Assembly: GCA_009996515.1 (NCBI GenBank)
Contig: JAACZV010000029.1
Span: 1-38,249, forward strand
Direction: 5' to 3'
Length of the DNA: 38,249 bases
Source: Comamonadaceae bacterium
GTDB lineage: Bacteria; Pseudomonadota; Gammaproteobacteria; Burkholderiales; Burkholderiaceae_C
The position numbers and the translations under genes were made by a program. The notes beneath the pieces are model-generated. The model was not told where the DNA came from. It saw only the letters and a program-made list of their open reading frames with translations, and did no database searches. This document shows, piece after piece, positions 28,211-38,249 of this stretch (positions are counted from its first letter, which is position 1; the number at the start of each line of letters is the position of its first letter).

Positions 28211-28849
28211 TCATGCGGCGGGCGAGGCGGCGGACGGGGCAGCAGGCGGCTGGCTGCGCTGCACGTCATGCATCAGCCGGGCCACGACCAGGCGCATGAC
28301 GTGGAAGCCGAGCTTGGGGTTTTGGTAGTAGAGCAGCGCCATTTCCTCGGCCGTGAGGCTGTAGACGACGCAGTCGCTGATCGCCTCCAGCGTCAGCGTG
28401 CGGTGGTTGTCGGGTGCGAACAGGCCGATCTCGCCAACCAGCGCGCCGGGCAGCAAGGTCTCGTCGTACTCGGCCAGGCGCAGCGCACCGGCCTCCAGGT
28501 AGAGCATCTCCGTCGCCACATCGCCCTTGCGCCACAGCACCGTGCCGGCCTTCACGCTGCGGCGGTGCATGTGCGGCAGCAGCCATTGCGCGACCGGGGT
28601 GTCGGCGCGGGCGTTCTCTATGGCCTTGACGAGCTTGCGCATCTGCAGCGTCTTCTTGACGTTGATGGGCACCAGCGCGCCGTACAGCAGCAGCGTCGGC
28701 AGGGCCGACTTCAGCGCGCCATAGGCGACCAGGCAGCAGCAGGCCGCCAGCGCCGCGACGCGCAGCGGCAGCATGCTCTTCATCCAGTAGCTGGCCAGCA
28801 TCAGCGCGGCGCCGGTCAGGCCAAGGACGGTGGCAAGGGTGTCGGTCAT
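28211..28849 (-). CDS. Three-helix membrane protein with cyclic-nucleotide-binding domain
   Basis: The 212-residue product has three closely spaced hydrophobic helices (about 5-23, 29-46 and 49-63) and no extracellular domain, then a cytoplasmic cNMP-binding domain (about 85-195). The phosphate-binding cassette reads VGEIGLFAPDNHRTLTLEA, with Gly139-Glu140 and Arg150 at the places that contact the cyclic nucleotide. There is no effector domain. The layout (three helices plus cNMP domain) is like that of animal Popeye-domain proteins; that is a likeness of plan only, not proven homology. The ATG overlaps the patatin stop as ATGA, so it is the last gene of the operon and a likely second receptor for the cyclase product. 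Confidence 0.88.
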   Translation of the reverse strand: MTDTLATVLGLTGAALMLASYWMKSMLPLRVAALAACCCLVAYGALKSALPTLLLYGALVPINVKKTLQMRKLVKAIENARADTPVAQWLLPHMHRRSVKAGTVLWRKGDVATEMLYLEAGALRLAEYDETLLPGALVGEIGLFAPDNHRTLTLEAISDCVVYSLTAEEMALLYYQNPKLGFHVMRLVVARLMHDVQRSQPPAAPSAASPAA

Positions 28850-30708
28850 GGGCGGCTGGGGTGAGTGGCTTGGGAAAGCGGCGCGAGGCCCCCGAGCAAG
28901 GCCCGGGCCTGCGGCCGCGCGAGCACGTCCTCGGCATGGGCCTGGCCCTGCTGGACGATGGCGTCGAAGCGCTGCCAGGCCAGCAGGCCCACGCGCTCCA
29001 GCGGCGGGTTGAAGTAGAGGTCGCAGGCCGCCTGCGCGGCGCGGCGGCGCGAGCTGCTGTAGAGGATGGTCACATTGAGCAGATAGGCCGGCAGCGTGGG
29101 TAACCGGTAGCGCCGCCGGCCGCGCGGGCGCAGCCGGTCGCGCAGCAGCGCCCAGGGGCCGGGCATTTCGTCAAAGTCCAGCTTGCGGGCCTTGTGCAGG
29201 CTCAGGTCGGCGCCGATGACGCAGCCGACGCCGCGCCGCGCCCGCATCACGTCGACGGGGAAGTTGTTGAAGCTGCCGCCGTCGCAGAGCAGGTCGCCGT
29301 CGACGACGACCGGCGGCAGTGCGCCGGGGATGGCCGTGCTGGCCCGCAGCGCGCGCTCCAGCGGGCCATGCGTGAGCAGCGCCTCGCCGGCCTGCGAGTA
29401 GTTGGTGGCGATGCAGTAGAAGGGCTTCCACAAGTCCTCGATGCCGGCCTGCGCGCCGACCAGCCGGCCCAGCGCGCCGTCCAGCGCGGCGCGCAGCCGC
29501 CGGCCGCGTATCAGCGAGATCAGCGGCAGCAGGTTGAAGTCGCCCGTGGGGTTGAGCCTGAAGGCTTCGCGGGCCACGGCCATGACGCGCTCCAGCGGCT
29601 GGTCGCAGGCCACCAGCGCGGCCATCACCGAGCCCATGCTGGTGCCGCCCACGCAGTCCACCTCCACGCCATGCCGCTGCAGCGCCTGCAGCAGGCCCAG
29701 GTGCGAGAAGCCGCGTGCGCCGCCGCCGGCCAGCACCAGGCCGACGGCGCGGCGCGCCTGCAGCCGCGCCAGCCGCGCCATGTCGCGGGCCAGGGCCGGC
29801 CGCACATGGAAATGCTCGGTCACCGGCCGGCGCGCCAGCCAGGCCGCCGTGCCGCGCGGCGCCGGCGCGTTTGCCGCGTGCAGCAGCACCAGGATCTCGG
29901 CCGACTCGGCCTGCGGCGGCCGCTCCACCAGGCATTGCGTCTCGCTGGCATGCACCGCCGGCGCGGCCGTCGCGTCGGCCAGCAGCAGCACCTCGTCGGC
30001 ATGGCGGCAGCAGCAGCGCGTCCACGGCGTCGGCGCGGCGTCGGCCAGCAGCAGCACGAAGTCGTGGGCGGACTCGGTCTCGTCCAGCCACAGCGACACC
30101 TCGCGGTAGTGCGCGGCGATGTCCTCGCCCACGGCGGCGCGCACCGCCGCGGCATCGACGACGCAGCAGCGGCCGAAGCGCCCCAGCTGCGCGGCCAGGT
30201 CGGCGGCGAAGCGGGGCAGGTCCACACCGGCGGTGACGGGCAGCAGCGTCTGCACGACCGGCGCGGCGAACGGCGCGACGGCATGCTCGGTCTGCAGCCG
30301 GTGCACGATCTGGCGCGTCAGCGCGACGCCCACGCCCGCATGGCGGGCGATGAGCTGCAGGAACTGCGCCTTGTCCAGCCGCACCAGCAGCGAGTCACGG
30401 ATGGCCACGACGGTGGCCGAGCGCGGCGCCTCCGTGTACAGGCTCATCTCGCCGATGACCTCGCCGCGGCCCAGCTCCCTGACCATGCGCGGCGCCTCGC
30501 CGTCCTGGCTCACGTAGACGCGCAGGCGGCCGCTGACCGACAGGTACATGGAGTCGCCCGCCTCGCCCTGGCGCATCAGCGTCTGCCCGCCGGCCACCTC
30601 CACCCAGGCCAGTTGCTCGCGCAGCAGCGCCAGCGTGGCCGCGTCCAGCTCGCCGAAGGCCCGGGCCAGCAGCTCGCCCAGCAGGCGGTCGTGGTAGCCG
30701 CCGCTCAT
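28846..30708 (-). CDS. Patatin-like phospholipase with N-terminal cyclic-nucleotide-binding domain
   Basis: The 620-residue product resembles the neuropathy target esterase branch. A cNMP domain occupies about residues 15-140, with the phosphate-binding cassette GEMSLYTEAPRSATV (Glu87, Arg96). A less conserved Rossmann-like middle (about 150-300) follows, then a patatin domain (about 320-500). The catalytic dyad is intact: oxyanion loop GGGARG, nucleophile Ser357 in GTSMG and Asp476 in DGG. There is no signal peptide or membrane helix, so it should act on the inner leaflet. Family members deacylate phospholipids or lysophospholipids, and cyclic-nucleotide control is expected but not shown. 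Both ends overlap neighbours as ATGA, directly after a nucleotidyl cyclase gene. Confidence 0.94.
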   Translation of the reverse strand: MSGGYHDRLLGELLARAFGELDAATLALLREQLAWVEVAGGQTLMRQGEAGDSMYLSVSGRLRVYVSQDGEAPRMVRELGRGEVIGEMSLYTEAPRSATVVAIRDSLLVRLDKAQFLQLIARHAGVGVALTRQIVHRLQTEHAVAPFAAPVVQTLLPVTAGVDLPRFAADLAAQLGRFGRCCVVDAAAVRAAVGEDIAAHYREVSLWLDETESAHDFVLLLADAAPTPWTRCCCRHADEVLLLADATAAPAVHASETQCLVERPPQAESAEILVLLHAANAPAPRGTAAWLARRPVTEHFHVRPALARDMARLARLQARRAVGLVLAGGGARGFSHLGLLQALQRHGVEVDCVGGTSMGSVMAALVACDQPLERVMAVAREAFRLNPTGDFNLLPLISLIRGRRLRAALDGALGRLVGAQAGIEDLWKPFYCIATNYSQAGEALLTHGPLERALRASTAIPGALPPVVVDGDLLCDGGSFNNFPVDVMRARRGVGCVIGADLSLHKARKLDFDEMPGPWALLRDRLRPRGRRRYRLPTLPAYLLNVTILYSSSRRRAAQAACDLYFNPPLERVGLLAWQRFDAIVQQGQAHAEDVLARPQARALLGGLAPLSQATHPSRP

Positions 30709-37300: not shown

Positions 37301-38249
37301 CAGGCCTTGCTCCGCATGCAGCCGGGCTGCCTCGCCGCTGGCGTCCAGCGCCGCGTGCAGCCGGCCCGCCGCCAACTCGGCCCAGGCGACCAGGCCCAGG
37401 TCGGCCATGCGCTGCGCGGCCGAGGGCGAGTGCGCCAGCGCCTGCCGGAACTGCGCCGCCGCCGCGGTGGCATCGCCCTCGGCCATCGCGATCTCGCCGC
37501 GCAGCCGCGCGATCTCGGAGCGAAAGCCGGGGTTCTGGCGCGCCAGGCCCAGGGCCTCGACTTCGTCGGCGTAGGCGCGCGCGCCGGCCAGCGCGCCGGC
37601 CTCCAGGTCCAGCCGCGCCAGCGCCGTCAGCGTGTAGGGCAGCAGCGCCGTGGCGCCGGTGCGGCGCCAGATCGCCAGCGCGGCCAAGTAGTGGCGCCGC
37701 GCGCGCCGGTTCAGGCCCAGCGTGACGTAGTGGTTGCCGATGTTGTGGATGGCCGTGCCCTGGCGCTCGGCATAGCCGGCCGCCGCATAGGCGGACAGCG
37801 CCTGCTTGGCACGGTGCAGGCAGTCGGCCAGGTCGGGGTTGTTGAAGGTCAGCGCGTTGTAGGCATTGCCCTGGCCCAGCAGGTCGCCGCTGGCCAGCGC
37901 CAGCGCCAACGCGCCCTCGGCCGCCGCGCGCGCCTCGGCCACCCGGCCCAGCATGCCCAGCAGCAGCGACTCGATATAGCCGCAACGCCCCTGCGGCACC
38001 GGCTTGCCCGCGACGGCGAACAGCACCGCGGCCTCGCGCACCCGGCCCAGCGCCAGCGCCGGCTCACGCTGGCAGCGGCATTGCGCCTCGGCCAGCAGGG
38101 CCAGCGCATGGGCACGGTCCAGCGGCGCGGCGCCGGCGCCGGCCAGCGCGGTCTCGGCCGTGGCGATGGCGGCCAGCAGCTCGCCGCGCCGCATCTGCAC
38201 CAGGCCCTGGGCCAGCCGGGCGCGCAGCCGCCAGGCGGGGCGGCGGCCG
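34331..38249 (-). CDS. Large TPR-GAF-GAF-GAF hybrid histidine kinase, N-terminus beyond window
   Basis: The frame is open to the right edge: codons before 38200 read on without a stop ([20 protein letters not shown]), so the true start is outside. Counting from the GTG at 38200, about 330 residues form TPR/MalT-like helical repeats. GAF domains follow near 380-540, 565-725 and 735-900, then HisKA (His925 in [10 protein letters not shown]), HATPase (about 1030-1140; [19 protein letters not shown]) and one receiver (Asp1220 in [12 protein letters not shown]). No membrane helices are seen in this part. AAA/kinase-type sensors with TPR and GAF regions can have an N-terminal Ser/Thr-kinase and ATPase module; whether one exists here cannot be seen. 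It is the first visible gene of the operon. Confidence 0.93.

Follow-up and report, generated by a model that had tools for sequence, protein, structure and literature searches.

A candidate phosphorelay–cyclase operon with an NTE-type patatin and a small membrane cNMP-domain protein at a fixed locus in a Comamonadaceae genus

Background

In the cyanobacterial CyaC-type phosphorelay adenylate cyclases, histidine kinase and receiver domains control a class III nucleotidyl cyclase, and kinase and cyclase are parts of one chain. In the XC_0250/XC_0249 cGMP pathway of Xanthomonas campestris, a class III cyclase gene adjoins the gene of an effector with a cyclic nucleotide monophosphate (cNMP)-binding domain (PMC3770947). 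Domains of the same kind occur in the lipase NTE (PNPLA6), which has three cNMP-like domains with some disease mutations inside them (PMC9025805). According to PMC6995513, evidence for nucleotide binding or nucleotide control of NTE was missing as of 2019, while cAMP promotes the lipid-droplet contact of the NTE paralogue PNPLA7 via its third cNMP-like domain; cell data covered by a 2022 review link higher cAMP to a higher level and activity of NTE (PMC9025805). Here, we analyse a block of six genes at positions 28211–38249 of contig JAACZV010000029.1 (assembly GCA_009996515.1, Comamonadaceae bacterium), a complete contig of 38,249 bp referred to below as the window. The block encodes two hybrid histidine kinases (HK1 and HK2), a lone Hpt protein, a receiver-cyclase (RECcyc), a patatin with a cNMP domain (PAT) and a small membrane protein with a cNMP domain (MEM).

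The block is read here, with a probability of roughly 0.6, as a signalling operon that keeps one chromosomal locus, in which a phosphorelay would drive cNMP synthesis and PAT and MEM would read the nucleotide. Such an operon would turn outside signals into a messenger for an NTE-like lipase and a small membrane protein. Since it pairs an NTE-type lipase with a likely cyclase, nucleotide control becomes testable with small proteins, which makes the block useful for asking whether the cNMP domains of the NTE family are real sensors.

Results and discussion

Gene order and conserved residues

All six open reading frames (ORFs) of the block lie on the minus strand, and the ORF calls bore out the coordinates and the overlapping or abutting junctions given in an earlier note on this DNA. 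The stop of HK1 at 34331 abuts the start of HK2 at 34330, while Hpt and RECcyc overlap by 8 bp (31741–31748), RECcyc and PAT by 4 bp (30705–30708) and PAT and MEM by 4 bp (28846–28849), leaving a sole gap of 61 bp between HK2 and Hpt. The order of domains that the note had described, from kinases over Hpt and receiver-cyclase to two cNMP proteins, was likewise confirmed by Pfam. HK1 (34331–38249) consists of three GAF stretches, HisKA, HATPase and REC; its 5' end is missing because the window ends where the contig ends, so that 1,305 aa are present vs 1,371 aa for the counterpart in the related operon L037. The first ~420 residues of HK1 had no Pfam match and are perhaps TPR-like, judged by eye. 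HK2 (32138–34330) starts with several hydrophobic segments, followed by HisKA, HATPase and two RECs, and in the window sequences the H-boxes of both kinases are intact. The lone Hpt (31741–32076) carries its phospho-acceptor His56 in the motif AHSLKSN, and RECcyc (30705–31748) combines a REC domain with a following PF00211 (Guanylate_cyc) match of 2.2e-24. PAT (28846–30708) has a cNMP domain, an NTE P-loop-like domain (PF24179, 2.8e-24) and a patatin domain, all three above cut-off, and no hydrophobic segment above the threshold used. MEM (28211–28849) has N-terminal helices and a cNMP-binding domain in Pfam.

All six genus-mates having PAT at 79–88% identity (L035–L040, 19-kb neighbourhoods) share the core Hpt–RECcyc–PAT–MEM with the same gene order, and alignment of the resulting seven operons showed that the functional residues are invariant throughout: His56 of Hpt, the metal residues Asp171/Asp215 and transition-state residues Asn292/Arg296 of RECcyc, Ser357 (in GTSMG) and Asp476 of the PAT patatin domain, and the Gly-Glu...Arg phosphate-binding cassettes of both PAT and MEM. 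The intact cassettes and the Ser-Asp dyad that had been noticed in the window thus hold for every operon of the group. The parts of a multistep phosphorelay are all present: a REC on the hybrid kinases, the Hpt and a receiver on the output protein, with their His and Asp residues intact. The four core genes are under purifying selection, with dN/dS of 0.16–0.42 in 20 comparisons of the window with five of the six relatives, L038 being left out.

The terminal RECs of HK1 and HK2 are 80% identical in the window, and those of HK1, HK2 and an extra kinase in L037 are 79–81% identical to each other within one genome. Identity to these terminal RECs is much lower for the first REC of HK2 (33–37%) and for the receiver of RECcyc (35–40%). 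Near-identical terminal RECs are expected if every kinase feeds one Hpt; several sensors would then share one output plug, matched to the single Hpt. The kinase sets comprise one kinase in L036, three in L037 and L039, HK1 with a GAF kinase in L038, HK1 with HK2 in L040 and HK2 with short end pieces of HK1 in L035. In the latter (genome G014), a 307-aa ORF at 8202–9125 with these end pieces stands for HK1, and the remaining operon is present.

Taken as a pathway, for which we infer co-transcription, the phosphotransfer steps, the sign and identity of the nucleotide signal, lipase control and a PAT–MEM contact, the operon may work as follows. One to three hybrid kinases with different sensors would pass phosphate to the lone Hpt, which would hand it on to the receiver of RECcyc. 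Phosphorylation of this receiver would change the activity of the class III cyclase and thereby how much of a 3',5'-cyclic purine nucleotide, either cAMP or cGMP, is present locally. This nucleotide would be read by PAT, whose cNMP domain would gate phospholipid deacylation by a patatin that lacks a membrane segment, and by MEM, which would act as a small membrane receptor for the same nucleotide.

The cyclase, its product and the two cNMP proteins

By its domain match and catalytic residues, RECcyc is classed with the class III nucleotidyl cyclases. Canonical class III adenylyl cyclases have a base-specifying Lys four residues before the second metal Asp, and exceptions exist. The base-specifying positions of RECcyc are Gln211 and Thr285; Gln211 replaces this Lys in all seven operons, and Gln is also found in two operons without PAT (L059 and L067). 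The nearest solved cyclase is 2w01, which we take to be a guanylyl cyclase, though the PDB labels it an adenylate cyclase; in the alignment it has Glu at the Gln211 position, so that RECcyc departs from the canonical pattern of guanylyl cyclases as well as from that of adenylyl cyclases. A distant receiver-cyclase relative (2.2e-73), in which the position of the transition-state Asn is Leu, is encoded at L100:6113–7000 in the genus-mate G001, where neither MEM nor PAT was detected at the thresholds used.

PAT is, by domain content, an NTE-type patatin; of 300 genomes of the order, 22 had a match to the NTE P-loop domain. Its cNMP domain has Arg-Ser in the cassette and an R(x3)E motif in all seven operons. 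The predicted structure of MEM, of moderate confidence (mean pLDDT 74, pTM 0.52), shows three helices and a cNMP domain, and Foldseek matched the latter to the CRP and HCN/CNG domains; the 50 PDB matches listed for the model were to cNMP-domain proteins. Popeye homology was considered for MEM on account of the similar layout and rejected, since MEM and seven relatives had no PF04831 match at E 10. Imp-YgjV, to which the helices showed sub-threshold similarity (0.091 for MEM, 0.00043 for the relative in L094), may be a better lead.

An Arg-Thr in the cassette, combined with an Asp four residues past the C-helix Arg (R(x3)D), was present in 19/19 aligned MEM sequences; in five farther relatives read by eye, Thr was kept in four and Asp in three. 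In animal CNG channels, a Thr/Asp pair favours cGMP. One of the best matches of the MEM sequence is to the solved cNMP domain 5h5o, which is labelled a diguanylate cyclase and is presumably XC_0249. XC_0249 has an Asn-Glu pair (PMC3770947), which neither PAT nor MEM fully matches. An assignment to cAMP or cGMP from residues was tried and dropped, as Gln211/Thr285 of RECcyc, Thr151/Asp195 of MEM and Ser97/Glu141 of PAT do not decide between the two; we lean slightly towards cGMP as the putative product. A more specific proposal is that bacteria have the NTE layout split over two chains, with a membrane part and a cNMP domain in MEM and a cNMP domain, the P-loop domain and the patatin in PAT, both gated by a dedicated phosphorelay cyclase making cGMP. 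It is suggested by the Arg-Thr and Asp of all 19 MEM sequences and by the missing adenine-specifying Lys of RECcyc, and we consider it rather unlikely.

Conservation in the genus and chromosomal locus

Profile searches with MEM, RECcyc and PAT placed the core order in 7 of 20 genus genomes, the window included, with Hpt read in the fetched neighbourhoods only. Behind MEM, the window holds a convergent OmpR-type response regulator (27449–28180, plus strand, Pfam match), which serves here as a marker of the locus and for which circuit membership is not implied. This regulator is present in all 20 genus genomes, 12 of which have neither a full-length MEM nor a close RECcyc. In the 11 operon-lacking genomes fetched, a GAF-PAS kinase lies near the regulator without the block (the twelfth, G010, was left out, its match beginning 799 bp from the contig start), and a dCache-GGDEF diguanylate cyclase stands between kinase and regulator in nine of the 11, being fragmented in G003. 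The same GAF-PAS kinase is found upstream of HK1 in 6/6 operon neighbourhoods (L035–L040), and the diguanylate cyclase lies behind MEM in four of the six; it had no match in L038. The operon neighbourhood L102 of G004 contained no GAF-PAS kinase within the 18.9 kb fetched and no diguanylate cyclase behind MEM. The stretch from HK1 to MEM is therefore a block between the GAF-PAS kinase and the diguanylate cyclase or regulator. A recent mobile insertion was considered and rejected, given that the block occupies this one chromosomal place. The description as a six-gene operon holds in that six genes are present; HK1 is truncated, and in relatives the cluster extends further at both ends, exceeding six genes in most of them.

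The region behind MEM differs between relatives. In the window, ~30 bp (28180–28211) separate MEM from the regulator and the diguanylate cyclase is missing, the best GGDEF matches of this genome sitting elsewhere with ~40% identity. In L036 (also fetched as L115), a diguanylate cyclase relic of 27 residues was found behind MEM (L115:4878–4958, equal to L036:15878–15958), and ~7.5 kb lie between the relic and the regulator, holding a gene that is CheA-like by eye. In two of the nine operon-lacking genomes with the diguanylate cyclase, cNMP-only proteins occupy the place of MEM between the GAF-PAS kinase and this cyclase (L104:3158–3439 in G013 and L105:3033–3356 in G018). They share 47% and 67% identity, respectively, with the cNMP domain of MEM; these may be a remnant or a precursor of the operon.

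Recombining parts in Burkholderiales

A scan of named genomes with MEM gave 19 loci, all with beta-proteobacterial names as far as judged. The 13 loci beyond the six relatives were read and 12 could be judged, L072 being too short. PAT and MEM stood together without Hpt and RECcyc in four of the 12 (L060, L061, L064 and L069), and neither partner set adjoined MEM in six. The gene behind MEM encodes a cNMP-domain ion channel in L063, L064, L065 and L066, whereas L061 and L097 have a SulP-STAS-cNMP permease there. In L060, L061 and L070, cyclases with TPR and/or AAA domains are encoded ~5 kb or less from MEM, and a cyclase was found near MEM by profile in L071. In L065, a PAT on the opposite strand, ~5.4 kb from MEM, was not scored as a pair. 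MEM may thus represent a family of membrane cNMP receptors that accompanies cNMP-domain channels, permeases and lipases in Burkholderiales. At L094:9558–10898, a fusion of an alpha/beta-hydrolase and a class III cyclase domain is encoded directly upstream of a MEM relative, which is also flanked by a CRP-type regulator. MEM was found in 19 of 398 genomes across the phylum (E 1e-15), and within the phylum sample one family, f88, often has MEM-like proteins, with up to three per genome (L117–L124 and L125–L144).

Adjacency to a cyclase was counted as a PF00211 match within 6 kb on the same contig; the resulting counts are lower bounds, and those for patatins refer to the matches listed. Outside the Hpt–RECcyc–PAT–MEM quartet, at least 9 of 41 PATs were near a cyclase vs 0.66 expected from cyclase density. 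As 13 of these 41 come from genomes picked for holding MEM, the remaining 28 give the fairer number, at least six being near a cyclase vs 0.53 expected. The full-length PAT of G038 (L053), whose 19-kb stretch is without a cyclase match, was left out of the 41. For MEM outside the quartet, the count was at least 9 of 18 vs 0.21 expected, taking in L072 and G225, both at contig ends, and at least 7 of 16 once the two REC-cyclase operons are set aside; weak cyclase profile matches in L064 (1.1e-7) and L066 (2.7e-5, at a contig end) were excluded. These independent pairings of cyclase, PAT and MEM support a functional link between them. In G030, two class III cyclase domains with equal scores lie ~4 kb apart beside an NTE-type PAT (L044:8383–8898 and 12364–12879), perhaps as a tandem duplication.

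Weighing the alternatives

Several of the results weigh against a phosphorelay-driven circuit that is complete in itself. The full gene order was not found outside the genus-level group, in searches covering PAT in 60 relatives and MEM in the named genomes, 300 genomes of the order and 398 of the phylum; conservation across Burkholderiales had been proposed as a check in the earlier note, with an order restricted to close relatives set beforehand as a finding against it. The number of kinases ahead of the core varies from one to three per operon, and PAT can be missing, as Hpt, RECcyc and MEM occur without it in 2 of the 12 judged loci (L059 and L067), the former from an eighth genus genome (G004, L059/L102) with the order kinases–Hpt–RECcyc–MEM. 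The change from Lys to Gln at the base site means that neither the activity nor the product of RECcyc can be assumed. Turning to the adjacency counts, related genomes were counted separately, so that nominal P-values of 1e-5 or below exaggerate the significance. Patatin-only controls near a cyclase numbered 0/19 among the matches listed in ten genomes, and the PATs of the same genomes at least 2/11, a small excess (cyclases listed in this comparison were 6/9 for G030 and 1/2 for G020). Outside the order, home-made profiles found no cyclase, patatin or other cNMP protein within ~6 kb of MEM in 20 loci (20 of 24 matches, from 16 genomes, with L137 cut at a contig end), which limits the MEM–cyclase association to Burkholderiales, so that it is no general property of the MEM family.

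A rival explanation is that two modules share one cluster, the cyclase filling a cell-wide cAMP pool that serves CRP-like pathways while PAT and MEM answer to the general pool. The source genome does hold three class III cyclases in all, RECcyc and two others, and the 32 of 41 PATs without a cyclase within 6 kb (among the matches listed), which also count against a dedicated circuit, show together with the 20 outside-order MEM loci that such receptors can exist without a linked cyclase. A mere sharing of space is, however, at odds with the overlapping RECcyc/PAT/MEM junctions, kept in order in seven genomes, and with cyclase–PAT and cyclase–MEM pairs that recur with unrelated cyclase architectures, so we regard this explanation as doubtful. 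The adjacent OmpR-type regulator raises another possibility, namely that Hpt mainly phosphorylates this or another receiver, with the cyclase driven otherwise and the gene order reflecting operon packaging. The regulator is, however, independent of the operon, as it occurs in 20/20 genus genomes of which 12 lack full-length MEM and close RECcyc; moreover, Hpt overlaps RECcyc by 8 bp, and the pair stays joined in L059 and L067, where PAT is absent. We consider this possibility improbable.

Anti-phage defence of the Pycsar type, with cyclic pyrimidines and membrane and lipase effectors, came into question since Pycsar systems likewise place a class III cyclase beside a membrane cNMP receptor (PMC11224242). 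Among PADLOC models, the PycC model PDLC00734 matches RECcyc at 2.3e-25, and the cNMP domains of PAT and MEM have matches to models of the PycTIR type. The latter matches lie within the cNMP domain, and no PycTM model was among them. Many different PycC models match RECcyc, and the match therefore looks generic for class III cyclases. Clade-E PycC proteins, the only clade compared, have F100/R142/Q144 around D102/D146 (PMC11224242), whereas RECcyc has Phe169/Gln211/Ile213 around Asp171/Asp215; one of the three positions fits, and the fitting Phe is also present in the adenylyl cyclase 5x4t. The receiver on the cyclase, the preceding Hpt and the single chromosomal locus are further points against a defence system. 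The Pycsar reading was rejected on these grounds, and we consider it very improbable.

A phosphorelay that drives cNMP synthesis for PAT and MEM thus remains our preferred reading. The self-contained circuit proposed earlier is upheld in its anatomy, its residues, its order in 7 of 20 genomes and its recurrent pairings, and has to be qualified in that the full order was found in the genus-level group alone, the kinase number varies and PAT can be absent.

Comparison with known systems

The CyaC-type adenylate cyclases resemble the block in the control of a class III cyclase by histidine kinase and receiver, and differ in that the block has a separate Hpt, through which several kinases would act on a small receiver-cyclase. 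The Pycsar systems (PycC with PycTM or PycTIR; PMC11224242) share the link between a class III cyclase and a membrane cNMP receptor, whereas the block has a receiver and an Hpt, a fixed locus and base-site residues off the cytidylate pattern of clade E. The POPDC proteins (PMC6562197) are built like MEM, with three transmembrane helices ahead of a cNMP-binding domain, but carry DSPE/FQVT motifs where MEM has a CRP-type GE...RT cassette. NTE/PNPLA6 (PMC6995513, PMC9025805) combines a cNMP part, an NTE P-loop-like domain and a patatin in one chain, as PAT does; PAT, in contrast, has a single cNMP domain where NTE has three, and it lacks a hydrophobic segment, the membrane and cNMP part being present separately in MEM.

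In the literature searched, which covered few subscription papers and included the accessible text of PMC6995513, PMC5131308 and PMC9025805, neither a phosphorelay–cyclase–NTE patatin system nor a printed case in which an NTE-family lipase has a cyclase of its own was found. The closest printed relative appears to be XC_0250/XC_0249, in which cyclase and cNMP-effector genes adjoin in the same way. Its effector is, however, a cNMP-GGDEF protein, and the accessible text of PMC3770947 mentions no phosphorelay or lipase, whereas in the block the cyclase has a receiver, a lipase and a membrane protein would serve as receptors, and the diguanylate cyclase is a separate gene, found behind MEM in four of six relatives.

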